This document shows positions 32,205 to 45,277 of a stretch of 64,000 nucleotides of DNA, one piece after another. The notes beneath the pieces are model-generated. The model had not been told where the DNA came from. It did not search any database and saw only the letters and a program-made list of their open reading frames with translations. Numbering within the stretch: position 1 is the stretch's first letter; the number at the start of each line of letters is the position of its first letter. The translations under genes and the position numbers were made by a program. Origin of the DNA: Tenacibaculum adriaticum (lineage in GTDB: Bacteria; Bacteroidota; Bacteroidia; Flavobacteriales; Flavobacteriaceae); contig NZ_VNIA01000001.1 of the NCBI RefSeq assembly GCF_008124875.1, forward strand, positions 512,721 through 576,720, in the 5' to 3' direction.

Positions 32205-33383
32205 ATGAAACCCGACTTATTCCAAGCTCCAGATTATTATAATATTGATGATTTATTATCCGATGAACATAAACTAGTTCGTAATTCTGCAAGAGATTGG
32301 GTTAAGAAAAATTTGTCGCCAATTATAGAAGAGTATGCGCAACGTTCTGAATTTCCAAAAGTACTGGTAAATGGTTTAGCCGAAGTTGGTGCTTTTGGTT
32401 CTTACATTCCTACGGAATATGGCGGAGCAGGATTAGATCAAATTTCATACGGATTGATTATGCAAGAACTCGAAAGAGGCGATAGTGGAATACGTTCTAC
32501 GGCATCTGTACAATCATCCTTGGTAATGGGACCTATTTATAACTATGGAAATGAAGCACAACGCAAGAAATATTTACCAAAATTAGCTTCAGGAGAATGG
32601 ATAGGTAGTTTTGGACTTACAGAACCTAACCACGGAAGTAATCCTAGTGGAATGGAAACGAAGTTCAAAGATATGGGCGACTATTATTTGTTAAATGGTG
32701 CAAAAATGTGGATTTCTAATTCGCCAATTTGTGATGTCGCAGTTGTTTGGGCAAAAAATGAAGAAGGAAGAATTCACGGTTTAATTGTAGAACGTGGAAT
32801 GGAAGGTTTTTCTACGCCAGAAACTAAAAATAAATGGTCGTTACGTGCCTCCATAACTGGAGAGTTAATTTTTAACAATGTTAAAGTTCCGAAGGAGAAT
32901 TTATTACCTAATAAATCGGGTTTAGGAGCGCCTCTTAAATGTTTAGATGCTGCGCGTTATGGAATTTCTTGGGGAGCTATTGGTGCTGCGATGGATTGTT
33001 ATGATACAGCACTTCGTTATGCGAAGGAACGTACTCAATTTGGGAAACCGATAGGTCAGTTTCAGTTACAACAAAAGAAATTAGCGGAAATGATTACTGA
33101 AATAACGAAGGCTCAATTATTAGCGTGGAGATTAGGAACGCTAAAAAATGAAGGTCGAGCTACGTCTGCTCAAATTTCTATGGCAAAACGTAATAATGTA
33201 GATATGGCGCTGAAAATTGCGCGAGAAGCACGTCAAGTATTAGGAGCTATGGGAATTTCTGGTGAATATTCTATTATGCGCCATTCGATGAATTTAGAAA
33301 GTGTGGTTACTTATGAAGGAACTCACGATGTTCACTTGTTAATAACAGGTTTAGATATTACAGGATTGAATGCGTTTAAGTAG
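32205..33383 (+). CDS. Acyl-CoA dehydrogenase, glutaryl-CoA dehydrogenase type
   Basis: 392 residues, FAD-dependent. Conserved GSFGLTEPNHGSNPSGMETK, WISNSPICDVAVVWAK, RASITGELIFNNVKVP, RTQFGKPIGQFQLQQKKLAEM, and catalytic base glutamate E371 in YEGTHDVHLLITG. The late glutamate in YEGTH and the SITGEL segment point to glutaryl-CoA dehydrogenase, which makes crotonyl-CoA in lysine and tryptophan breakdown. No other genes of that route are adjacent. Confidence 0.88.
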   Translation: MKPDLFQAPDYYNIDDLLSDEHKLVRNSARDWVKKNLSPIIEEYAQRSEFPKVLVNGLAEVGAFGSYIPTEYGGAGLDQISYGLIMQELERGDSGIRSTASVQSSLVMGPIYNYGNEAQRKKYLPKLASGEWIGSFGLTEPNHGSNPSGMETKFKDMGDYYLLNGAKMWISNSPICDVAVVWAKNEEGRIHGLIVERGMEGFSTPETKNKWSLRASITGELIFNNVKVPKENLLPNKSGLGAPLKCLDAARYGISWGAIGAAMDCYDTALRYAKERTQFGKPIGQFQLQQKKLAEMITEITKAQLLAWRLGTLKNEGRATSAQISMAKRNNVDMALKIAREARQVLGAMGISGEYSIMRHSMNLESVVTYEGTHDVHLLITGLDITGLNAFK

Positions 33384-33892
33384 TGGTTTCGCTATCGGTT
33401 CAGCTATGAATCGTTTCGTTGTTTTAGTATAAATTTAATAAAATAAGCGAATTTTAGATCGTTCTGTTGATTTTCCTGAGTGGGAAAATTCACCAGCAAT
33501 GCTTTAGGTTTTGTTACCTTTTATTGCGTCATGTACAGCCATTTTTTAGCCTGTAGTTATCAACCTCGTAATTGATTAAGTCTGTCACAGTTTAAAATCC
33601 AAAGTATTATTTTCAGTCGTTTTATTCCGTAAAGATTGTCAGCAACGAGATTGGAAATCCTCCGTTTTGATTCAGTAGTTTTTCTCTGATTTTATTTCTT
33701 AAATTCTACTTTTAATCATTTTTTTCTGTCTATTTTGAGTCATTAAATCTACAATTATTGAAGGTTATCTTTAGTTTTCAAAATTGATTTTAAGCAATAA
33801 AAGGCAGGTAATTTGATAAAAATTTATTATTTTTAGATTTAATAAGAATTCTTTCGCGAGAAGATAGACATTAACCTTGAAATGTCTTTAAA
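33384..33892 (+). other. Non-coding 509-base stretch
   Basis: No open frame of note on either strand and no clear terminator after the acyl-CoA dehydrogenase. GC content and word use (for example GATTTTCCTGAGTGGGAAAA and CAACGAGATTGGAAATCC) differ from the AT-rich spacers nearby, so it may be a decayed gene or part of a dispersed repeat. I cannot identify it. Confidence 0.4.
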
Positions 33893-33928
33893 ATGTTCAA
33901 GGATTTAATCAATTTAATCATTATTATT

Positions 33929-34108
33929 ATGAAAAAACAAATTTTAAACCTAGGAAAAAGATTAAGTAGAGAAGATCAACAAGAAATTAAAGGAGGATTT
34001 CCATTTATAGATTGTGACCAATTTTGTAATATTAGTGGGAATAATCCAGAATTTTATTTACAGGATCAATTGAAATATGGTCTAGATTGGTCTCATTGTG
34101 TTTGTTAA
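33929..34108 (+). CDS. Double-glycine leader peptide (RiPP/bacteriocin-type precursor)
   Basis: 59 residues from the ATG of MKKQILNLGKRLSREDQQ; 12 codons of a longer frame upstream are judged not translated. The leader, ending at EIKGG (residue 23), has the form of Bacteroidota natural-product precursor leaders. The 36-residue core has four cysteines (Cys29, Cys33, Cys57, Cys59), aromatic residues, and ends in HCVC. A C39-type peptidase/transporter would cut after GG, and cysteines may form disulfides or be modified. None of these partner genes is in the window, so it is an orphan precursor. A terminator follows. Confidence 0.72.
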   Translation: MKKQILNLGKRLSREDQQEIKGGFPFIDCDQFCNISGNNPEFYLQDQLKYGLDWSHCVC

Positions 34109-34154
34109 CATTGAGGATGTAATGCTTTAATTAATATGGAAATATATTGATATG

Positions 34155-34187
34155 ATAGCCATCGGCTTAAAACGGTGGCTATTTTAG
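34155..34187 (+). terminator. Rho-independent terminator
   Basis: ATAGCCATCG / CGGTGGCTAT (one G-T pair) with an 8-base loop and TTTTAG tail, 46 bases after the peptide gene stop. Confidence 0.75.
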
Positions 34188-34212
34188 TTATAGATTTAAT
34201 AATCAAGATAAA

Positions 34213-34755
34213 TTAAACATCAATACCAGTCGGCAATCCATCAATACTTTGGGTGTTTTTCTCTTTCCAATAGTCTTCAATACCGTCTTTTCCTTTTTTA
34301 ATTGCCCATTCGTTTAGTTCTTCGCGTTCACCTTTGTATTCGTAAAAAGGGATAGACATTCCGCAGGAAGTTTGTGCACTTTCCACGGTTACATCAAAGA
34401 TTTGTCGTGCTCCTGGAGTTTCTGGTAATAAAGAGGCCAACTCTTCCCAGTTTTTATCTTTTGGTTTAACTTCTTTAGCTTTTCCATAGATACGAAGAAT
34501 GTTTGGGGTCCCTTCAAAAGCACATAGCATTAACGTTATTTTACCATTTTGATTTACATGAGTAGCAGTTTCATTTCCACTTCCAGTAACGTTGAGCCAA
34601 ATCAATCTATTTTGTTCAATTACACGCAAACTATCCATTCCTTTGGGTGATAAATTAATTCGACCTTCTATAGGAGCAGTTGCTACAAAAAATATTTTTT
34701 GTTCTTCAATGAATTTTTGAAGTCTCGGAGTTATTTTATCGTAGAATTTTGACAT
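34213..34755 (-). CDS. Pyridoxamine 5'-phosphate oxidase-family flavoprotein
   Basis: 180 residues, split-barrel FMN-binding fold. FFVATAPIEGRINLSPKGMDSLRV and LIWLNVTGSGNETATHVNQNGKITLMLCAF are typical of the general PNPOx-like branch; true PdxH residues for PLP are not evident, so the substrate is unknown. Monocistronic: flanked by a repeat on the 5' side and a terminator region on the 3' side. Confidence 0.85.
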   Translation of the reverse strand: MSKFYDKITPRLQKFIEEQKIFFVATAPIEGRINLSPKGMDSLRVIEQNRLIWLNVTGSGNETATHVNQNGKITLMLCAFEGTPNILRIYGKAKEVKPKDKNWEELASLLPETPGARQIFDVTVESAQTSCGMSIPFYEYKGEREELNEWAIKKGKDGIEDYWKEKNTQSIDGLPTGIDV

Positions 34756-34773
34756 ATTGTTTTATATTTATAA

Positions 34774-34842
34774 TGTCATATTGAGTAAGTTTTACTGTTG
34801 AAAACGTAAAATTTGTATCGAGATGTCTAGTTCTTGATACAT
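34774..34842 (+). repeat. Dispersed repeat family B, copy 1
   Basis: Begins GTCATATTGAGT and ends in hairpin TGTATCGAGA / TTCTTGATACA (34814-34841). It matches, by eye, the copy at 40434-40485 (GTCAGTTCGAGTGATTTT ... TTGTATCGAGA). Lies in the gap between the PNPOx-family gene and glpK. Confidence 0.55.
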
Positions 34843-34889
34843 TTTTGTTATGTTGTCACTTCACAAAAAAAACTCTAACAGACACGTTT

Positions 34890-36371
34890 TTAATCTATCC
34901 AATCTTTTGTTCTTTCCACGGCTTTTAGCCATTTTTTGTACAATATATCTCTTTTTTCCGATGAAAAGGAAGGAGAGAATTTTTTATCTATAGCTTTTTG
35001 CCTTGTTATATCTTCTTGTTTCCATAAGCCCACACAAATTCCAGCTAAGTAGGCACAACCCATTACTGTGGTTTCAATAATTTCTGGCCGCAGAACTTCT
35101 ACACCTAAAATATCTGCTTGAAATTGCATTAAATAATTATTTGCACATGCACCACCATCAACTTTTAAAGATGTTAAAGGTACTTCAGCATCTTTTTGCA
35201 TAACGTCTAAAATATCTTTGGTTTGATACGCAAGCGAGTCTAAAGTGGCTTTTACCAAGTGATTTTTACCTGTGTCACGAGTTAATCCAAACACAGCACC
35301 GCGTGCATACATATCCCAATACGGAGCCCCTAAACCAGCAAAAGCAGGAACTACATAAACAGGATTTTCACCTTCAACTAATTTTGCCAATTTTTCAGTG
35401 TCTTTAGCATTGTTAATGATTTGCAATCCGTCTCGTAACCATTGAATGGCAGAACCCGCTACAAAAACACTTCCTTCAAGAGCATAATATACTTTGTTGT
35501 CAATTCCCCAAGCAATGGTAGTCAACAGTCCATTTTTTGAATATTCGAGAGTTTCACCGGTATTCATTAGCATAAAGCATCCTGTTCCGTAGGTGTTTTT
35601 AGCTTCTCCTTTTTCAAAACAAGCTTGTCCAAATAAGGCAGATTGTTGGTCGCCTGCAATTCCTGCAATGGGAATCATATTTCCGTCTAATTCATAATTC
35701 CCGAAATGAAAAGAAGAGGGTTTTACTTCAGGTAGCATCGATTTAGGAATGTTTAATTCTTTTAATAATTTTTCATCCCAACATAAGTTTTTAATATCGA
35801 ATAACATGGTTCTAGAAGCGTTGCTATAATCTGTTGCATGAACTTTTCCATTCGTTAAATTCCAAAGTAACCAGGTATCGATGGTTCCAAATAGTAGGTT
35901 TCCTTTCTCAGCTTCTTTTCGAGCTCCCTCTACATTATTGAGAATCCAATTAATTTTGGTTCCAGAAAAATAAGAATCAATGACCAAGCCAGTTGTTTTA
36001 CGAACGTGATCTTCCAAACCTCGTTTTTTGAGTTGTTGACAAAAATCGGCAGTTCGCTTGTCTTGCCAAACAATGGCGTTGTATATGGGTTTTCCTGTGC
36101 TTTTATTCCAGACTACTGTTGTTTCTCGTTGATTGGTAACACCAATACCCACAACTTCCGAAGGAGAAATACTTGCTTTAGCCATTGCTTTTTTAAGCGT
36201 AGCTAATTGTGTTTTTAATATTTCTTCCGGATTATGTTCCACCCAACCCGAATGCGGAAAAATTTGCTCGAATTCTTGTTGTGCCAACCCAACAATTTGT
36301 CCGTTTTCGTTTATAATTACGGAACGAGAACTTGTAGTCCCTTGGTCTAGCGCGATAATATATTTTGCCAT
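34890..36371 (-). CDS. glpK: Glycerol kinase
   Basis: 493 residues, full length. [13 protein letters not shown] (phosphate-1 motif), [12 protein letters not shown], the glycerol-site [35 protein letters not shown] and [14 protein letters not shown] are all present. Phosphorylates glycerol to glycerol-3-phosphate. glpF and glpD are not adjacent. An attenuator-like hairpin with T run lies 50 bases before the ATG. Confidence 0.96.
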
Positions 36372-36420
36372 TTTAGAAAATAAAAAGACAATTTACAATT
36401 TAATGTGGTGGCAATAAAAA

Positions 36421-36452
36421 AAACCTTCTAGATAAATTTATCTAGAAGGTTT
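36421..36452 (-). terminator. Perfect 16-bp palindromic terminator / attenuator before glpK
   Basis: Two 16-base perfect arms, AAACCTTCTAGATAAA and TTTATCTAGAAGGTTT. On the minus strand it is followed by a run of eight T (36413-36420). It lies between the response regulator stop and the glpK start, so it acts as a terminator for upstream minus transcripts or as an attenuator in the glpK leader. Confidence 0.75.
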
Positions 36453-36562
36453 ACTAATCCCCTTTTTTTCGTTTTTATCCGTGTCGATTAATTTAATCCC
36501 CATTAATTAATTAAACGGAAGAGAACAAGTCAAAAGTAAAGTAAATTTTTAATATTAAAAAA

Positions 36563-36596
36563 GGGATTTCCGCAAATAAAAGTGTGATTTTCCGCA
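36563..36596. repeat. CCGCA-GTGTG-CCGCA element, copy A
   Basis: Reads ATTTCCGCA - 8 bases - GTGTG - ATTTTCCGCA. A near copy occurs at 36741-36772. Each copy lies beside a hairpin, so the 405-base gap 36372-36776 appears to be a diverged tandem duplication. Possible protein-binding site or part of a small RNA. Confidence 0.5.
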
Positions 36597-36614
36597 GTTT
36601 ATAGTTTAATAATC

Positions 36615-36658
36615 AAAGAAAAACCTCCCAAACAAATTTGCCTGAAAGGTTTTCTTTT
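36615..36658 (-). terminator. Imperfect hairpin terminator
   Basis: AAAGAAAAACCT pairs with AGGTTTTCTTT (one bulge) around an inner CAAATTTG palindrome. On the minus strand GGTTTTTCTTTG follows the stem, so it can end the response regulator transcript. Confidence 0.6.
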
Positions 36659-36740
36659 TTTTTTTCTTCAAGTAATCTTCCCCAAAATTACTAACAAAGT
36701 ATGATGCAAATTTATCAGTTTTATAGGTAGTGATAAAATG

Positions 36741-36772
36741 GTTTACCGCAGAAAAAAGTGTGGATTTCCGCA
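36741..36772. repeat. CCGCA-GTGTG-CCGCA element, copy B
   Basis: Reads GTTTACCGCA - 7 bases - GTGTGGATTTCCGCA; second copy of the element at 36563-36596. It ends 5 bases from the stop codon of the response regulator. Confidence 0.5.
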
Positions 36773-36776
36773 ATAA

Positions 36777-37454
36777 TTAATCTAATATTCCTAATTCTTT
36801 AGCTTTTAACACTAAGTCTGTATTATTTATAGCTTGTAAATCGGCACGAAGTTTGGCTAATTTATTTTCTATTGCTCTTATTTTCAATAGACTTCCGTCA
36901 CTTTTGGTAATGATTCCTTCCATATTACCAATCTTTGCGTGTTTTGGCAATTCTTTTAAAATTTGGATAGCAACATCATCCATTTGAATTTCTACCAAGG
37001 CTCTTTTTAAGATTTTCTGATGAATTTCATGTGTGTAATACACCTCGTTTGCCAACATTTTTTGAATGGCAAAATTTAATTCGGCGGTATCGCAATTTCC
37101 TTTTAAAATATAGGCAGATGGATTTAGATTGTGAATAACACTATAAACCCGGTTCGTTTCAGAATGACCAGTAATAACACCAATTTTTATGGGAATTTCT
37201 TCTTTTTGAAGCATTTTTATAAAAGACTCTCCACTGTCTATAAGAGAGTTCTCATCAGCATTATCAAAACTTAAATCGGTAAAAACAATTTGAAAAGGAT
37301 TGTTTTGTAAACATGTTTTTATTTTCGAAAAAGCCTCGTCGCACGAATTTGCAGTTTCAATTTCTAAATGAGGAATATCTTTAAGGTAAGAAAGAATTCC
37401 TTCTAATATCAACTGATGATCATCAACAATCAGTATTTTTATTTTGTTAGGCAT
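36777..37454 (-). CDS. Response regulator with diverged LuxR-type output domain
   Basis: 225 residues. Receiver domain with D11/D12, phospho-acceptor D60 (VFTDLSFDNADEN, followed by an unusually long acidic loop), T-type GVITGHS and AYILKGNC lysine. The C-terminal 70 residues line up with a LuxR helix-turn-helix at both ends (DDVAIQILKELPKH ... TDLVLKAKELGILD), but the recognition-helix region (GNMEGIITKSDGSLLKIRAIENKL) lacks the usual SxxTVKxH pattern. DNA binding may be altered or lost. It overlaps the TPR kinase by 8 bases (translational coupling). Confidence 0.85.
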   Translation of the reverse strand: MPNKIKILIVDDHQLILEGILSYLKDIPHLEIETANSCDEAFSKIKTCLQNNPFQIVFTDLSFDNADENSLIDSGESFIKMLQKEEIPIKIGVITGHSETNRVYSVIHNLNPSAYILKGNCDTAELNFAIQKMLANEVYYTHEIHQKILKRALVEIQMDDVAIQILKELPKHAKIGNMEGIITKSDGSLLKIRAIENKLAKLRADLQAINNTDLVLKAKELGILD

Positions 37455-39285
37455 TTATAGGTATTTGGATAGAAGTTTTGGTTCCTTCACCCACCTTACT
37501 TTCAATAGTAAGAGTTCCGTTTAACTCTTCTACACGTTCTTGTAGGTTGTGTAAACCAATTCCTTTTTTACTAATTTTGGTATCAAAACCTATACCATTA
37601 TCAGTAATACTCAAAAATACAAATTTTTTAGCGATTGAAAGATCAATTATAATTTTAGTTGCTTGTGCGTGTTTTTGGCTGTTTTGTATGCTCTCTCTTA
37701 TACTTAAATACAGTAGTCGTTTTATAGCGTTGTTTATGGCAGACCAATCGTAATCTTGTAATCCGTTTACTTTTATTTTTAAATCTAACGAAAAATAATC
37801 GCTCACTAAATTAATAACTTGATCTTTAAACGAAACTTTGTCAAAATTTACACTACTTAATTGATGCGATAAATTACGAACGTTTTCTTTTACCATTTCT
37901 AGCTTTTGTGCTTCTTCTATAAGTTGCGATTTCTCTAATTTTTGATGTAACATTCGCAAATCACCCGCAACTTCGTCGTGTAACGATTTTGCAATTTGTT
38001 GGCGTTCATGTTCACGGGCTTCAGCTCTTTGTAATTGTGCTTGGTATAGTTGTTTTCTACGTCTTAACACAAAAAAGGAAACACTTAATGCTAAGGCGAA
38101 TAAACACGCTGCTGCAAATAACCAACCAATTGTTTTTTGCTGTTTATGACGTACTATTTCTATTTGTTTTTTTTCATTCTCGGTTTTTAAAACAACGTTT
38201 TCCTTTTCTTTTTTATCGGTTTCGTACCTAATTTTTGCAAACTGGTTTTTTAACCTACGCTCTTGTTGAAATAAACTATCATTAAGCTGTATGTATTCTC
38301 GTAAGTATTGCCTTGATTGTTTGCCCGTTGTGAGTTCTGAAAGTAATTCCAGAGCTTCTAAAGTTCGTTTGTTATTATGGGCTTGTCTAGCGTATTTTAA
38401 AGCTTCGTTAACGTGGTAGAGTGCTTTTTCTTTTTGATTAAAACTTTTGTAATAATCTGATAAATTAATATTAATAGTACTTAATTCTTTAAAATCTTTA
38501 AGTTTACTTCTTATTTCTAACACTTCGTAATATTGTTTTAAGACATTTTTTTTATTTCCTGATAAAAAATTACTGGCGGCCAAGTTTTCTAATAAAAAAG
38601 CATATTCTTTAGGGTATTTTTCTTTAATATCATCGAATTTTAACCCTTTTTTAAAAAACTGAATAGCTTTTTCATGTAATTTTTGTTTTTGATATAATAA
38701 ACCTAAATTATTAAAAACACGAATGTATCCCAGTTCTTGTTTTTTATAGTCTTTATTTAATTTACTTATTTTGTATGCTTTTTTATAGTATGATATAGCT
38801 TCATTTATCTGATTTAATTCTTCAGAAGCCAAACCTAGGCAGTTATAGACACTTTCTAAAAAATTAAAAGCTTGAATAGGCTTCAAATATTTTAATGATT
38901 CGATTGATGAAATTTCACTACCTAAAAAATCTTTAGCATCTCTTTGTATTACAGCCATACTAAGAAATCTTTTACCTATTTCTAGTGAATCATTTAAAAG
39001 CAAGGAAATGTTTTTTGATTTATTATAATAATAATAAGTACTATCACTATTAAATTTAATTCTATGAAGTAAAGCTTTATAATGAAAATATTTAGCTAAA
39101 ACTGACAAATCTTGATTTTTTTTATATAAAAATAATAATTGATTTGTTGTTTTGTTTAGAGTTATTGAATCATTATTAAAATATGCTTCTAGTCCCTTTT
39201 TAATAATACTTTCTTTTGAAGAAAGAGCTATTTCTTGAGAGAAGATAGAAAAAAAACTAAAAAAAAACAGGAATCTTAAAAACAT
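37447..39285 (-). CDS. TPR-containing sensor histidine kinase (HisKA_3)
   Basis: 612 residues. Signal peptide (1-16), then a periplasmic array of about six TPR repeats (for example YNCLGLASEELNQINEAISYYKKAYKIS and FNNLGLLYQKQKLHEKAIQFFKKG), a coiled coil (about 335-380), a single membrane helix (about 384-406), phospho-acceptor H436 in LHDEVAGDLRML, and HATPase_c with DNGIGFDTK and GIGLHNLQERVEEL. This is the NarX-like kinase class that partners LuxR-type regulators. The TPR array probably binds a peptide or protein outside the cytoplasm. A 41-residue peptide gene and an attenuator lie just upstream. Confidence 0.92.
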   Translation of the reverse strand: MFLRFLFFFSFFSIFSQEIALSSKESIIKKGLEAYFNNDSITLNKTTNQLLFLYKKNQDLSVLAKYFHYKALLHRIKFNSDSTYYYYNKSKNISLLLNDSLEIGKRFLSMAVIQRDAKDFLGSEISSIESLKYLKPIQAFNFLESVYNCLGLASEELNQINEAISYYKKAYKISKLNKDYKKQELGYIRVFNNLGLLYQKQKLHEKAIQFFKKGLKFDDIKEKYPKEYAFLLENLAASNFLSGNKKNVLKQYYEVLEIRSKLKDFKELSTININLSDYYKSFNQKEKALYHVNEALKYARQAHNNKRTLEALELLSELTTGKQSRQYLREYIQLNDSLFQQERRLKNQFAKIRYETDKKEKENVVLKTENEKKQIEIVRHKQQKTIGWLFAAACLFALALSVSFFVLRRRKQLYQAQLQRAEAREHERQQIAKSLHDEVAGDLRMLHQKLEKSQLIEEAQKLEMVKENVRNLSHQLSSVNFDKVSFKDQVINLVSDYFSLDLKIKVNGLQDYDWSAINNAIKRLLYLSIRESIQNSQKHAQATKIIIDLSIAKKFVFLSITDNGIGFDTKISKKGIGLHNLQERVEELNGTLTIESKVGEGTKTSIQIPINA

Positions 39286-39299
39286 TTTATAGATAATAT

Positions 39300-39325
39300 A
39301 AAACCATCACAAGAGTGATGGTTTT
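39300..39325 (-). terminator. Hairpin terminator / attenuator before the TPR kinase
   Basis: Perfect 11-bp stem, AAAACCATCAC / GTGATGGTTTT, 4-base loop. On the minus strand it follows the small peptide gene and precedes the kinase ATG by 14 bases. Confidence 0.75.
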
Positions 39326-39359
39326 GTAGCTTATTTAAATAAAAATGATTAGCTCATGA

Positions 39360-39485
39360 TTAACCACCTTCACCATCACCACTTGTTCCACTACCTCCAG
39401 TATTGTCGTCACCTCCGCCAAGGGTCTCTGTTCCTTCAGGGTTTAAAATCATTGCTTGTTCTTCTAAGGGATTCATTTCTTTCAT
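39360..39485 (-). CDS. 41-residue glycine-rich peptide
   Basis: Open frame from ATG at 39485: begins MKEMNPLEEQAMILNPEGTE, then TLGGG, and a C-terminal tail of Gly, Ser, Asp and Thr only (ending GDGEGG). No signal peptide or cysteine. The TLGGG junction recalls double-glycine leaders, with the first 23 residues as leader and the tail as core; that is a guess. It lies upstream of, and in the same direction as, the TPR kinase and response regulator genes, separated by an attenuator, so it may be highly expressed and could be the kinase's ligand. No homologue is known to me. Confidence 0.6.
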   Translation of the reverse strand: MKEMNPLEEQAMILNPEGTETLGGGDDNTGGSGTSGDGEGG

Positions 39486-39706
39486 TTTCTTAATTTTTAA
39501 AAGTTAATATAATCTGAGCTAAATGTACTGTTTTATTCTAATTTACTCTAAAAAACAAAATAATTTAACATTAGTTTTACATTGTTGTTGTTAAAAGTTA
39601 AATTTTGGTATTATTTATTTAATAAATAAGGTTTTTTATTGAGAAATTTATTTATAGCTTTAAAAACAAGTTAGAAAAATAGAACGCCTCATTGCTTTTT
39701 TTAGCC

Positions 39707-39790
39707 CGTCATTGCGAGGGCAGCGAAGCAATCTTTCGGTTTTGAGTTCTCAATAGAGAGATTACTTCGTCATCCTTCCTAGTAATGACA
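39707..39790. repeat. Palindromic repeat family A, copy 1
   Basis: Left arm CGTCATTGCGAGGG and GAAGCAATCT; right arm AGATTACTTCGTC, ending AGTAATGAC. The arms pair with some G-T pairs and could form a long cruciform or RNA hairpin. The gap 39486-39706 upstream holds only the putative promoter area of the peptide gene. Confidence 0.8.
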
Positions 39791-39831
39791 ATTGCTTGAT
39801 GTTTTCATTTTTTAAAGAATTATATTTTACA

Positions 39832-39920
39832 CGTCATTGCGAGGGACGAAGCAATCTGTTAGTTTCGAGTTCCCAATTAAGAGATTACTTATTACTTCGT
39901 CATCCTTCCTCATAATGACG
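39832..39920. repeat. Palindromic repeat family A, copy 2
   Basis: CGTCATTGCGAGGGACGAAG ... ending CATAATGACG, with an extra TTACTTA inside the right arm. Ends 6 bases from the stop codon of the GIY-YIG gene. Confidence 0.8.
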
Positions 39921-39925
39921 TTAGG

Positions 39926-40222
39926 TTAAACATTAAACAACCAACCTTCAGATAAATCTTTCCAATCAGGATTTTCTTTATTTATTAAATCTTCTTTTCT
40001 TTTTCTATTGCCAGCTTTTAATTGCTTTTCTCGAGCTATAGCTTCCGTTATCGATTGAAAAGTTTCATAATAAACTAATTTGTTGCAATTATATTTAAAA
40101 GCAAAACCTTTGTATTTACCTGTTTTATGTTCGTAAATTCTTTTAATTAAGTTTGAAGTAATTCCAATATAAATGACAGTGTTGTTTTTATTGGTTAGAA
40201 AATAAACAGAAGGAGTTTTCAT
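39926..40222 (-). CDS. Single-domain GIY-YIG nuclease
   Basis: 98 residues. Motif VYFL (Y7) and IYIG (Y18-G20), R28 in LIKRIYEHK, and glutamate in AIAREKQLKAGNRKRKEDLI, which are the tyrosines, arginine and metal-binding glutamate of the GIY-YIG fold; C-terminal NPDWKDLSEGW is typical of the small YhbQ/UPF0213-like group. Acts on DNA, target unknown. No other genes belong to it. It is bracketed by palindromic repeats: copy 2 lies 6 bases past its stop and copy 3 begins 24 bases before its ATG. Confidence 0.9.
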   Translation of the reverse strand: MKTPSVYFLTNKNNTVIYIGITSNLIKRIYEHKTGKYKGFAFKYNCNKLVYYETFQSITEAIAREKQLKAGNRKRKEDLINKENPDWKDLSEGWLFNV

Positions 40223-40245
40223 GCATACAAATTACTAAAATCCCA

Positions 40246-40331
40246 CGTCATTGCGAGCGCAGTGAAGCAATCTTTCGGTTTCGAGTTCTCAATAGAGAGA
40301 TTACTTCGTCATTTCACTCCTCGTAATGACG
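40246..40331. repeat. Palindromic repeat family A, copy 3
   Basis: CGTCATTGCGAGCGCAGTGA ... ending TCGTAATGACG. Lies just upstream of the GIY-YIG ATG. Copy 1 shares its loop (TTTCGGTTTYGAGTTCTCAA), so copies 1 and 3 are closest to each other. Confidence 0.8.
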
Positions 40332-40376
40332 ATTGGTTAATTGTTTTTCGTTTTTTGAAGGAATTTATATTTTTTA

Positions 40377-40403
40377 CGTCATTGCGAGGGACGAAGCAAT
40401 CTG
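40377..40403 (+). repeat. Palindromic repeat family A, half copy
   Basis: Only the left arm is present (CGTCATTGCGAGGGACGAAG then CAATCTG). The right arm is replaced by a family B repeat, which suggests recombination between repeats. Confidence 0.7.
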
Positions 40404-40433
40404 TTTAAGGTTATCGAGAGTTTTCATATTGAT

Positions 40434-40518
40434 GTCAGTTCGAGTGATTTTATGAAGTAAAACGGAATAAAATTGTATCGAGAACAAGCTCATAGGTTCC
40501 TGCCTTCGCAGGAATGAC
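40434..40518 (+). repeat. Family B repeat fused to a TTCCTGC-cttc-GCAGGAA hairpin
   Basis: GTCAGTTCGAGTGATTTT ... TTGTATCGAGAAC, then a hairpin with arms TTCCTGC and GCAGGAA followed by TGAC (40497-40518). The hairpin is like the GCAGGAATGAC elements seen in many bacterial genomes. Lies between the GIY-YIG unit and the methyltransferase gene; with the family A copies it fills the gap 40223-40527. Confidence 0.55.
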
Positions 40519-40527
40519 AATTTATTT

Positions 40528-41058
40528 TTAAGCTCTCATTTTAGAAAACAAATCCCAAAGCACCACACCACAACTTACTGAGATATTCAATGAATGTTTG
40601 GTTCCTAATTGTGGGATTTCAAGACACATATCAGAAGCAGAAACTACGTTTTGTTGTACGCCTTTTACTTCGTTACCAAAAACCACAGCGTATTTTTGGT
40701 TCGATTTAGGGATAAAGGTATTTAGCATAGTACTGTTTTCAGCTTGCTCAATAGATAGTACTTTTACATTGTCTGCTTTTAGTTTTTCAACCAAAGTCAA
40801 CGTGTCTTCTACATACTCCCAATCTACCGATTCGGTGGCACCTAAGGCCGTTTTATGAATTTCTTTGTTGGGTGGCGTAGCCGTGATACCACACAGGTAA
40901 ATTTTTTCGATTAAAAAAGCATCCGAAGTTCTAAAAACTGAGCCCACATTATTCAAACTACGAACATTGTCTAACACCACAATAATGGGTGTTTTTTCAG
41001 TTTGTTTAAACTCATCAACCGTTATTCTTCCTAACTCGCTATTCTTCAGTTTTCTCAT
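40528..41058 (-). CDS. SpoU/TrmH-family RNA 2'-O-methyltransferase
   Basis: 176 residues. The trefoil-knot SPOUT motifs are IIVVLDNVRSLNNVGSVFRTSDAF (motif 1), VFGNEVKGV (motif 2) and LEIPQLGTKHSLNISVSCGVVLW (motif 3, SAM binding). Methylates ribose in tRNA or rRNA; the exact position cannot be told. No N-terminal RNA-binding extension. Confidence 0.9.
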   Translation of the reverse strand: MRKLKNSELGRITVDEFKQTEKTPIIVVLDNVRSLNNVGSVFRTSDAFLIEKIYLCGITATPPNKEIHKTALGATESVDWEYVEDTLTLVEKLKADNVKVLSIEQAENSTMLNTFIPKSNQKYAVVFGNEVKGVQQNVVSASDMCLEIPQLGTKHSLNISVSCGVVLWDLFSKMRA

Positions 41059-41086
41059 GCTTGGGCAATCTTTAAATAATTATGGT

Positions 41087-41158
41087 GAGATTACTTTGTT
41101 ATTGTTCCTCATAATGACGATTTTTTTACGTCATTGAGAGGAAAAGGAAGCAATCTGT
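41087..41158. repeat. Palindromic repeat family A, inverted-order copy
   Basis: The right arm (GAGATTACTTTGTTATTG ... CATAATGACG, 41087-41119) comes first, and the left arm (ACGTCATTGAGAGG ... GAAGCAATCTG, 41128-41158) comes second with 8 bases between. Suggests recombination or end-to-end joining of two elements. Confidence 0.7.
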
Positions 41159-41239
41159 TCATCAAATAATTAAATGAATTATTTAACAACAATAACACTT
41201 TTCATATCTTCGCAAAACTAACCCAAAAAATCCAAAAAC

Positions 41240-43849
41240 TTGGCAAAAACAAAGGCAAAAAAGGTTACGCCATTAATGAAACAGTACAACGGAATTAAAA
41301 CAAAATATCCTGATGCGATGTTACTGTTTCGAGTGGGCGATTTTTACGAAACCTTTGGAGAAGATGCGGTAAAAGCATCGGAAGTTTTAGGAATTATTTT
41401 AACAAAAAGAGGTGCAGGAAGCGAAAGCGAAACAGCTTTGGCAGGTTTTCCGCATCATTCGTTAAACACCTACTTACCTAAGTTAGTGAAATCGGGTCTT
41501 AGAGTTGCAATTTGCGATCAGTTAGAAGACCCAAAAATGACGAAAACCATCGTAAAACGAGGTGTTACTGAGTTGGTAACTCCTGGAGTTGCGTTAAATG
41601 ATGAGGTATTACAATCGAAAACGAATAACTTTTTAGCAGCGGTTCATTTTGGGAAGAAATTGCTAGGAGTTTCTTTTTTAGATGTTTCTACAGGAGAGTT
41701 TTTAATCGCGCAAGGAAACGAAGAATACATAGATAAATTATTACAGAATTTTGCTCCGAGTGAAGTTTTGGTACAAAAGCAAAATAAACAGCGGTTTTTA
41801 GAATTGTTTACCAACCGTTTTCATTCCTTTTATTTAGAGGATTGGGTGTTTCAAAAAGACTACGGAAACGAAGTTTTAACCAATCATTTTAAAGTTAACA
41901 ACTTAAAAGGTTTTGGTGTTGATGAATTAGAACAAGGCATTGTTGCTGGTGGTGCAGCAATGTATTATTTATCGGAAACACAACACAATAAAATTGAGCA
42001 CATACAATCTGTTGGAAGAATTGCAGAAGATAAGTATGTTTGGATGGATCGATTTACCGTTAAAAATCTAGAGTTGTATGGTGGAAATTCGATCAATTCG
42101 GTTTCGTTGTTAGATATTATCGACAAAACCATTTCGCCAATGGGCGGACGTTTATTAAAACGTTGGTTAGCCCTTCCATTAAAAGATATTGAGCAAATAC
42201 AACAACGCCATGAGTTGGTGAAGTTTTTAATTGACAAAGATGATTTTTTAGAAACGGTTACCTATCAGTTAAAGCAAATTTCAGATATAGAACGCTTAAT
42301 TTCTAAAGTGGCTACAGGTAAAGTTTCTCCTAGAGAAGTAGTGCTGTTGAAAAACTCACTTAAAGCAATTTTGCCGATAAAAACTTCTGCAGAGAAAAGC
42401 AAGAACAAGGCAGTTCAAGAGTTAGGGAAACAGCTCAAGGATTGTAAAGAACTAATTCATAAAATTTCGGAAACTGTTTTTGATGATGCTCCTGTAAATA
42501 TTAACAAAGGAAATGCAATTGCAAGTGGGGTTTCTGATGAATTAGACGATTTACGAGGTATTTCTAATTCAGGAAAAGAATATCTCGATAATATGTTGGC
42601 TCGAGAAACTGAGCGAACGGGAATTACGAGTTTAAAAATAGCTTTTAATAACGTTTTTGGGTATTATATAGAAGTAAGAAATACCCATAAAGACAAAGTA
42701 CCCAAAGAGTGGATTCGTAAACAAACTTTGGTAAACGCAGAGCGTTATATTACAGAAGAACTTAAGGAATACGAAACCAAAATTTTAGGAGCGGAAGAGA
42801 AAATTCAAGCCTTAGAAGTTGAGATTTTTGCTAAGTTGGTTCAATACATTATCGGTTTTGTACAGCCTGTGCAACAAAACGCACAAGCGATTGCAAAAAT
42901 TGATTGCTTATTGTCGTTTGCCAAATTAGCGATAGATAACAATTATGTGCGTCCGATTATTGATGAAAGTACGGATATTGAAATAAAAAATGGCCGTCAC
43001 CCAGTAATTGAAAAACAATTAGCAATAGGTGAAGAATATATCGCCAATGATGTGGTGCTGAACAATAATCAGCAGCAAATTATAATGATTACGGGTCCGA
43101 ATATGTCGGGTAAGTCAGCTATTTTACGTCAAACCGCATTGATAGTTCTGTTAGCACAAATGGGAAGTTATGTGCCTGCACAAAATGCGCGTATTGGTAT
43201 TGTAGATAAGATTTTTACGCGTGTTGGAGCAAGTGATAATATTTCGATGGGAGAATCGACCTTTATGGTGGAGATGAATGAAACAGCGTCTATCTTAAAT
43301 AACATTTCGGATCGTAGTTTGGTGTTGTTAGATGAAATTGGACGAGGAACGTCTACCTACGACGGAATTTCCATCGCTTGGGCCATTGCTGAATATTTAC
43401 ACGAATATCCTGCGAAGGCAAAAACGTTGTTTGCTACACATTACCATGAGCTAAATGAAATGACCACCACGTTTGAACGTATTAAAAACTTCAACGTTTC
43501 GGTAAAAGAATTAAAAGACAGTATAATCTTTTTAAGGAAATTAATTCCGGGCGGAAGTAATCATAGTTTCGGAATTCACGTAGCAAAACTAGCAGGAATG
43601 CCTAGTATGGTAATTCATAGAGCAAATAAAATTTTAAAAGAATTAGAAGACTCTCATTCACATAAAGAAGTTAAAGAGGTTCTAAAAGATGCGCAACACG
43701 AAGAAATGCAAATGAGCTTTTTTCAGTTAGATGATCCATTATTAGAAGACATTCGAGAAGAAATTTTAGCAACTAATATTGATGCGCTTACACCCATTGA
43801 AGCATTGATGAAGTTGAACGAAATTAAACGAATGTTGGTGAAGAAGTAG
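41240..43849 (+). CDS. mutS: DNA mismatch repair protein MutS
   Basis: 869 residues, MutS1 type. Mismatch-binding domain with [15 protein letters not shown] (Phe-x-Glu mismatch wedge), connector, lever and clamp domains, and the ATPase with TGPNMSGKS (Walker A, residues 618-626), [16 protein letters not shown] (Walker B) and FATHYHEL. C-terminus includes the helix-u-turn dimerisation part. TTG start (41240), with [20 protein letters not shown] as the first residues; the first ATG would remove residues in front of the QY motif, so TTG is preferred. Confidence 0.96.
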
Positions 43850-43879
43850 CCGTTCATCAAATAATTTTTCACCTCAAAT

Positions 43880-43929
43880 GGAGTCGAGAGGTTGTTAATT
43901 GTTAGATATCGACTCCGCTCGATCTGACA
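43880..43929. repeat. Family B-like palindromic repeat, reverse copy
   Basis: On the minus strand GTCAGATCGAGCGGAGTCGA, then TATC and, 20 bases on, CTCTCGACTC. Fills most of the gap between mutS and the MATE gene. Confidence 0.5.
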
Positions 43930-43942
43930 TAATACTTCTTAC

Positions 43943-45277
43943 ATGCAACAAGACATTAGCTTTAAACGAATAAATAAACTAGCAATTCCCGCCTTAATTG
44001 CGGGTGTTGCGGAACCATTACTTTCTACGACCGATTTAGCGATTGTTGGTAACATACAACACAATGCTACCGAAAGTATTGGAGCTATTGGTATTGTAGG
44101 AGCTTTTTTATCGATGTTAATTTGGGTATTCGGACAAACACGTAGCGGAATTTCAGCTATTTTATCTCAATATTTAGGAGCAAATAAGTTAAATGAGGTT
44201 AAAAATTTACCTGCACAAGCCATCGTAATTGTGGTGGCTACAAGTTTTTTAATTCTAGGATTGAGCTTTCCGTTTGCACGAGATATTTTTCAATTTTATA
44301 ATGCTTCTGGAATTATTTTAGACTATTCAGTTGAATATTATCAGATCAGAGTTTTTGGTTTTCCGTTTACACTTTTTGTAATTGCTGTTTTTGGTACATT
44401 TCGAGGATTGCAAAACACGTATTATCCAATGTTGATTGCGATTATTGGAACAATTATTAATATTGTTTTAGATCTTATTTTGGTGTATGGTGTAGAAGGT
44501 ATAATTCCAGCAATGAATATTCAAGGAGCAGCCTACGCCAGTGTTTTTGCACAAGTTTCTATGGCTGGTATAGCTGTTTATTTACTATTGAAGAAAACAG
44601 AAATCTCACTTAAACTTGAATTACCATTCAATAAAGAGATTTCGCGTTTTATCACTATGATTTTAAATTTGTTTGTGCGTACGATTGCCTTAAATGTTGC
44701 TTTGTATTTTGGTACTTCATATGCGACAAGCTTCGGAAACGAATATATTGCAGCTTATACCATTGGCCTTAATTTATGGTTGATAGGAGCATTTACCATT
44801 GATGGTTATTCATCCGCAGGAAATATTTTATCAGGGAAATTATTAGGAGCAAAAGCTTATAAAACACTCATAACATTAGGAAATCGATTGCTACTATATG
44901 GTTTTTTATTCGGAATTGTAATGGCGGTGATTGGTTTTATTTTTTATAAACCCATTGGAAGAATCTTTACGCAAGAACCCGAAGTCTTAGAACAGTTTTA
45001 TCATACTTTTTGGATTATTTTATTGATGCAACCGGTATGTGCAATTGCATTTATTTACGATGGAATGTTTAAGGGGTTAGGAGAAATGAAGTATATACGA
45101 AATGTTTTATTGGTTTCAACAACCTTTGTTTTTGTTCCTGTTTTGTTAATTTTTAATGAGCTTGATTACAAATTACACGCTGTTTGGATTGCTTTTTATT
45201 GTTGGATTCTCGTTCGTGGAATTCCATTAATTTTAAAATTTAGAGGAAAGTTTTTACCGCTAGCGCAAAAAATGTAA
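43943..45277 (+). CDS. MATE-family multidrug/cation efflux transporter
   Basis: 444 residues with 12 predicted membrane helices arranged in two halves; NKLAIPALIAGVAEPLLSTTDLAIVG at the N-terminus and GFPFTLFVIAVFGTFRGLQNTYYPM in the first half are typical of NorM/DinF-type MATE proteins. Probably uses Na+ or H+ gradient to expel organic cations. Starts 93 bases after mutS with a repeat between, so co-transcription is uncertain. Confidence 0.92.
   Translation: MQQDISFKRINKLAIPALIAGVAEPLLSTTDLAIVGNIQHNATESIGAIGIVGAFLSMLIWVFGQTRSGISAILSQYLGANKLNEVKNLPAQAIVIVVATSFLILGLSFPFARDIFQFYNASGIILDYSVEYYQIRVFGFPFTLFVIAVFGTFRGLQNTYYPMLIAIIGTIINIVLDLILVYGVEGIIPAMNIQGAAYASVFAQVSMAGIAVYLLLKKTEISLKLELPFNKEISRFITMILNLFVRTIALNVALYFGTSYATSFGNEYIAAYTIGLNLWLIGAFTIDGYSSAGNILSGKLLGAKAYKTLITLGNRLLLYGFLFGIVMAVIGFIFYKPIGRIFTQEPEVLEQFYHTFWIILLMQPVCAIAFIYDGMFKGLGEMKYIRNVLLVSTTFVFVPVLLIFNELDYKLHAVWIAFYCWILVRGIPLILKFRGKFLPLAQKM

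Follow-up and report, generated by a model that had tools for sequence, protein, structure and literature searches.

A glycine-rich peptide frame beside a TPR histidine kinase in Tenacibaculum adriaticum: a candidate peptide-sensing locus of Flavobacteriaceae

A 64,000-nucleotide stretch of the Tenacibaculum adriaticum genome (contig NZ_VNIA01000001.1, positions 512,721 to 576,720; the window) carries on its minus strand, in this order, a 41-codon frame for a glycine-rich peptide (39485–39360), a hairpin (39325–39300), a gene for a sensor histidine kinase with tetratricopeptide repeats (TPR; 39285–37447) and a gene for a response regulator (37454–36777). Comparison of this locus with its relatives in many marine bacteria makes it probable, in our judgement, that the peptide made from the small frame is exported and serves as the cognate ligand of the periplasmic TPR kinase encoded next to it. 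The original prediction, made from the letters of the window alone, had proposed a peptide-sensing locus at this place; frame, 11-bp hairpin, kinase and regulator all lie where it had put them, and signal-peptide relatives, tandem-repeat precursors and a fast-diverging TPR domain fit such a locus, whose ligand function we infer.

A small coding frame upstream of the kinase

The features of the locus, with the basis of each assignment, are as follows.

39360–39485, minus strand: 41-residue peptide frame, MKEMNPLEEQAMILNPEGTETLGGGDDNTGGSGTSGDGEGG (sequence; syntenic relatives; coding selection of relatives)
39519–39527, minus strand: promoter-like −7 box, TACATTTAG, 33 nt ahead of the start codon (sequence; weak)
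39300–39325, minus strand: perfect 11-bp terminator-like hairpin with a 4-nt loop, in the spacer between peptide frame and kinase (folding, sequence)
37447–39285, minus strand: sensor histidine kinase, 612 residues (Pfam; topology by eye)
36777–37454, minus strand: response regulator, 225 residues, overlapping the kinase gene by 8 bases (Pfam, NCBIfam)
36619–36654, minus strand: terminator-like hairpin 3' of the regulator (sequence)

The window peptide is composed of a leader, MKEMNPLEEQAMILNPEGTETLGGG, and an acidic tail of glycine, aspartate, serine and threonine. The frame had been described as easy to miss, and the bare 41-residue query indeed recovered only itself from 299 genomes of the family; its relatives were revealed by synteny anchored on the kinase, which is present (E ≤ 1e-100) in 91 of the 166 genomes of the genus. 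From 90 genomes 103 kinase copies were read, and the 101 with at least 300 nt of upstream sequence were counted. A frame was scored as Gly-rich if it had 24–110 residues, at least four glycines and more than 15% glycine past residue 12, and lay at most 500 nt upstream. Such frames precede 58 of the 101 copies, as against 19 in 2020 dinucleotide-preserving shuffles (∼1%), 4/101 on the antisense strand and 13/2818 in 500-nt pieces taken elsewhere in these loci. Sorted by kinase identity, the frame accompanies 29/29 copies at 60% or above, 13/19 at 55–60%, 4/4 at 50–55%, 11/32 at 45–50% and 1/17 below that, and all 58 frames adjoin the best kinase copy of their genome. Three further loci (L021, L084 and L096) have weaker acidic frames with a leader, which the rule excludes. 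Similar Gly-rich frames upstream of the kinase, for which the original prediction had proposed a search, are thus found well above the shuffled rate, and a lack of conservation among relatives with the same kinase was not what we observed.

Nor do substitutions in the frame resemble those of non-coding DNA. In 14 non-overlapping species pairs the ratio of nonsynonymous to synonymous differences (pN/pS) was 0.45 in frame, as compared with 1.31 and 0.83 in the shifted frames; taken separately, the leader scored 0.39 and the tail 0.50. In a larger set of 52 pairs, which are not independent of one another, the ratio was 0.50. This evidence comes from relatives of the window species, which itself has no close enough partner, and it indicates that the small frame is under selection as a protein. 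An accidental frame across a conserved DNA element, to which the low-complexity codons and the failure of the direct query to find homologs might point, therefore has next to no chance of being the explanation, given a null rate of ∼1% against the 57% observed and a coding pattern of substitution. Counted over the 35 peptides with a Gly-Gly (GG) junction, Gly makes up 43% of the tail, Asp 16% and Thr 11%, and the mean charge is −4.3.

The 74-nt spacer between peptide frame and kinase folds with z = −4.4 relative to shuffles, and a T-rich hairpin with 7 bp or more occurs in 24 of the 58 related spacers, where shuffles predict 0.1. The hairpin matches no Rfam family (alternative RNA structures were not searched for) and looks like a terminator, so that the attenuator proposed for this position is not supported. 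The corresponding reading of the frame, as a leader peptide in which translation of the Gly codons controls the hairpin and hence the kinase gene, agrees with the order of frame, hairpin and kinase and with the Gly-rich codons, but signal sequences, lipobox and repeated tail units are conserved as protein in related loci, the gap from peptide to kinase ranges from 24 to 291 nt and the Rfam search was negative; we consider this reading very improbable.

Upstream of the peptide, the pattern TTG-N17-23-TAnnTT(T/A), which we take to be a promoter pattern of the Bacteroidota type, is found within 120 nt in 46 of the 58 loci (mean of 7.5 and maximum of 16 in shuffled sequence; 14/58 on the reverse strand). 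The strict two-box pattern does not occur in the window itself. A k-mer search of the same region for a conserved operator returned A/T-rich words and words that we attribute to the final coding part of the gene before it, and that candidate was dropped. With a promoter of its own and a terminator-like hairpin behind it, the peptide may be made in greater abundance than the kinase.

Lipoprotein-type and tandem-repeat precursors in other genera

Outside the genus, the distant relatives of the kinase (16 loci, 31–34% identical) are preceded in 14 cases, judged by eye, by a micro-gene of signal-peptide type, which encodes a signal sequence, nearly always a lipobox-like cysteine, an EETxALYE-like segment and a short acidic tail, often TDGDDxxxDDRE. 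A profile (A4) built from 14 signal-peptide forms, 13 from these distant loci and one from genome G131, was searched in the 299 family genomes, and the 30 best loci together with 20 picked from the list were examined. A kinase homolog adjoins all 30 best loci (29 by script; L149 is the same place as L123). In the reverse test, a kinase homolog lies next door at 17/17 of the best loci outside the profile and at 17/19 further distinct loci; a TPR kinase thus adjoins 34 of the 36 profile-independent loci examined. For seven loci (L130, L138, L154, L162, L163, L168 and L178), at which the script had reported a late kinase start, a translated search was used instead and puts the kinase ∼50–320 nt after the peptide. 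Weak matches (E ≤ 0.01), present in 252 of the 299 genomes, were left uncounted because, among those listed, a good number of the weaker ones align with just the signal-sequence part or lie within longer open frames. Across the phylum, where 296 genomes were searched at E ≤ 1e-6, the lipoprotein profile matched eight, seven of which belong to the window's family; the remaining match (L184, another family) is a 136-residue protein that by eye is not of the lipoprotein type, and was rejected.

Two sub-types of kinase and regulator seem, by eye, to be involved at the micro-gene loci. In a quick tree of 116 kinases, lipoprotein-linked and Gly-peptide-linked kinases are split by a supported branch (Shimodaira–Hasegawa-like approximate likelihood-ratio test, 97). 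Kinases of the genus that have no peptide lie scattered, and L121, which has a long branch and comes from another genus, is placed with the kinases of the window's genus. Both peptide types occur in genome G131, each adjoining a kinase of the lineage that fits it. A few tails of the lipoprotein type are Gly-rich at their ends (SGGSGGR, GSSGGSGGE), a resemblance to the window type that need not mean homology of the two peptides.

In six genomes the tail unit is tandemly repeated, with 3–7 copies of a unit of 12–28 residues.

L160: seven copies of a 14-residue unit
L145: five copies of a 13-residue unit
L161: three copies of a 12-residue unit
L162: five copies of a 17-residue unit
L179: three copies of a 13-residue unit
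L177: six copies of a 28-residue unit

Codon differences between the copies keep the residue in 311 cases and change it in 104 (all copy pairs, which are non-independent; 66 of the 104 are in L177). Since the differences are mostly synonymous, the copies are apparently maintained as peptides. In this the tandem tails seem to resemble multi-copy hormone precursors, each of which gives rise to several nearly identical ligands; we regard them as the strongest hint of function, and they offer natural clues to where the mature signal starts and ends. The L161 unit, CTDCTDVDEDSV, differs from the other acidic tails in having two cysteines per unit, which could form disulphides.

These precursors bear directly on the principal alternative, in which the peptide acts in cis as an accessory regulator of the kinase next to it: a small periplasmic lipoprotein or peptide, anchored and not diffusible, which would keep the kinase switched off or report the state of export or of the envelope. 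The lipobox cysteine is conserved in at least 90% of the 14 aligned signal-peptide forms, the peptide gene closely adjoins the kinase, and 30 of 88 genomes retain the kinase but no peptide. Nevertheless, multiplied tandem tails with conserved copies are more natural for a released ligand, and the window-type peptides have no visible anchor. We regard an accessory regulator as rather unlikely.

Sensor, export route and the weight of the evidence

In the window kinase TPR_12, TPR_1, TPR_8, TPR_2 and HATPase_c score above the Pfam cut-offs and HisKA_3 below. The TPR array spans residues ∼20–320 and is followed by a linker and a HisKA_3-like part with His436 (assigned by eye); the catalytic half resembles UhpB- and DesK-type kinases. 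A signal sequence (residues 1–17) and one membrane helix (∼386–408), both recognized by eye and with no topology program, would place the array in the periplasm, where we predict it to lie. The regulator has a receiver domain above the Pfam cut-off and matches NF011896 over nearly its full length with a score far under the cut-off; its C-terminal part resembles a diverged LuxR/NarL-type domain. A search of genome contigs with the kinase returned three loci, the sole full-length ortholog being that of another member of the Flavobacteriaceae, Tenacibaculum skagerrakense DSM 14836 (L127).

A regulator homolog lies 3' of the kinase in 89 of the 101 copies examined. Ten of the 12 copies that have none are peptide-less paralogs that group together; L049x1 was assigned to this group by its 91.5% identity to L048x1, and L095 is a member, yet has the regulator. 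Peptide-less kinase paralogs of the genus occur at L048, L049, L050, L067, L086, L091, L094, L095, L099 and L100, some in tandem with a peptide-bearing kinase; L095 apart, none is followed by a regulator homolog. In a set of 41 peptide-bearing kinases that share 55% identity or more with that of the window (820 pairs), pairwise identity averages 0.54 in the TPR part and 0.73 in the kinase part. Faster divergence of the TPR part is expected if sensor and ligand change together, although it does not amount to a test of co-evolution.

If the peptide is the ligand, its acidic Gly/Asp-rich C-terminal tail would reach the periplasm or the medium, presumably after cleavage, and bind the periplasmic TPR array, and phosphorylation of the adjacently encoded regulator would change, in one direction or the other, with consequences for whatever regulon it may govern. 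The precursor would be a small signal-peptide protein, usually a lipoprotein, in other genera of the Flavobacteriaceae; in the window's genus it would carry a short signal-less leader, often ending in Gly-Gly, and be exported perhaps by a C39 transporter (peptidase-containing ATP-binding cassette transporter, PCAT).

By a fixed pattern, a GG junction is present in 35 of the 58 window-type leaders, so that the TLGGG junction singled out in the original prediction recurs in kind but is not a general feature. By eye no signal sequence is visible in window-type peptides, with the exception of genome G431, where two successive Gly-tail frames precede the kinase (L030:936) and the second has a signal-sequence-like start; it may stand midway between the two forms of export. 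Of the 58 peptide-bearing genomes, 45 contain a C39 exporter, as do 28 of the 108 others (Fisher p 1.5e-10, which ignores kinship).

Eight genomes have further GG-leader peptides, containing Gly-rich segments, upstream of the locus, and a ninth, G301, has one with a truncated leader. Their offsets in kinase orientation are L009:664, L031:887, L039:325 and 543, L041:475, L052:2884, L053:3162, L054:3116 and L057:2850, and several carry a cysteine pair near the C-terminus. One of them, searched genus-wide, matched in 6/166 genomes, every time 0.4–1.0 kb upstream of the kinase. These peptides support the idea that a Gly-rich peptide would be exported, by whatever route. Elsewhere in the window's genome, 13 GG-leader peptides stand beside a C39 exporter (L126:10635–16837). 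Within the window, an orphan GG-leader peptide at 33926–34108 on the plus strand (MKKQILNLGKRLSREDQQEIKGG...) shares their leader type and falls below the NCBIfam lanthipeptide-leader cut-offs.

The extra GG-leader peptides, both those upstream of the locus and the 13 beside the C39 exporter, would also suit a secreted effector, similar to a bacteriocin or to a ribosomally synthesized and post-translationally modified peptide (RiPP), that is controlled by the two-component system while the kinase reads something else. However, among the frames from 33000 to 44000, inspected by eye with no profile search, there is no peptide-modification enzyme or peptide exporter (a MATE-like transporter begins at 43943), the main peptide and four relatives match no NCBIfam or Pfam model, and the tails are acidic and non-hydrophobic. 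We think a secreted effector quite improbable.

Several observations weigh against a peptide ligand, the weak points being the export route of the window type and whether the ligand is diffusible or acts in cis. The best kinase copy has no rule-passing frame in 30 of the 88 genomes with enough upstream sequence (G326, G360 and G435 among them carry weaker leader-bearing frames), so that the peptide is not required for the kinase to be retained, and none of 13 extra kinase copies has a Gly-rich frame. The GG junction is missing from 23 of 58 leaders, and a search at E ≤ 1e-10 did not find the C39 domain in 13 of the 58 peptide-bearing genomes, several of them near-complete, which led us to reject C39 export as a necessity. 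Lipidated precursors would stay anchored unless cleaved. At L164 and L169 a profile-matching peptide has no downstream kinase homolog. Net charge of the sensor does not separate peptide-bearing (+16.4) from peptide-less kinases (+18.3), and was rejected as a mark of acidic-ligand binding because it does not discriminate. Structures predicted for the full kinase and for its sensor from two sequences were unusable (mean pLDDT, the predicted local distance difference test, 45 and 58).

On the ligand reading, the locus might belong to a peptide communication widespread in Flavobacteriaceae and unlike any described, in which acidic peptides made from lipoprotein or leader precursors, some with 3–7 tandem copies, are read by periplasmic TPR histidine kinases, the species-specific tails and their receptors diverging together; we put this forward tentatively, as somewhat less than an even chance.

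Beyond the peptide frame, the region 39707–40522 contains dispersed short repeats (three copies of 67 nt, two of 41 nt and four of 20 nt), which flank a GIY-YIG domain gene at 39926–40222 on the minus strand; they are perhaps a repeat/nuclease pair that moves together.

Comparison with known peptide-sensing systems

In the ComC/ComD-type double-glycine systems of Gram-positive bacteria, a small peptide gene stands beside genes for a histidine kinase and a regulator, and the sensor is of the polytopic HPK10 type. The present locus resembles them in that the peptide gene adjoins kinase and regulator and in the GG-like junction of 35 of the 58 leaders. It differs in having a TPR sensor and a HisKA_3-like kinase in place of a polytopic membrane sensor, two forms of precursor including lipoproteins, tandem-repeat precursors, a Gram-negative envelope and no peptide exporter seen beside the locus; with TPR repeats, a DesK/UhpB-like half and, by eye, a single membrane helix besides the signal sequence, the kinase is not an HPK10-type polytopic sensor. 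RRNPP systems (Rap/Phr, PlcR/PapR, NprR) have a cytoplasmic TPR receptor, a peptide that is re-imported and a precursor gene beside that of the receptor. A TPR array, here above the Pfam cut-offs and a putative peptide receptor, and a small adjoining precursor gene are common to both, but the array described here is predicted by eye to be periplasmic and is fused to a kinase, which argues against a cytoplasmic receptor.

The well-studied FimS of Porphyromonas gingivalis is likewise a periplasmic TPR sensor histidine kinase of a Bacteroidota; the article on it states that its signal is unknown, and its authors suggest a polypeptide ligand (PMC11053733). The FimS model NF053520 matches the window kinase weakly (residues 131–418, E 3.7e-11), and at 42 bits against a cut-off of 600 the window kinase is ruled out as FimS. 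Bacteroidota GG-leader precursors of natural products (NCBIfam lant_leader, leader_Chryseo) share the short leader ending in GG, and in the eight genomes mentioned GG-leader peptides precede the locus; nevertheless, the peptide linked to the window kinase and four of its relatives match none of these models, and neither the window peptide nor ten related peptides scanned score above any Pfam or NCBIfam cut-off, which leaves all 11 outside those families. In Bacteroidales, a paper on RiPP clusters mentions histidine kinase/regulator and TPR genes near other peptides (PMC10352776). The original prediction knew of no such system described in Bacteroidota, which agrees with our survey of the open-access literature without preprints, in which, by title and start of abstract among the matches listed, neither a system of this kind nor a peptide signal for Bacteroidota TPR kinases appeared.

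In conclusion, the locus would work like the peptide-sensing two-component systems while standing apart from the named families by those of their defining tests that could be applied. Its kinase gene comes with the gene of a candidate ligand, so that synthetic peptides of ∼12–28 residues offer a way to test ligand, receptor and specificity.

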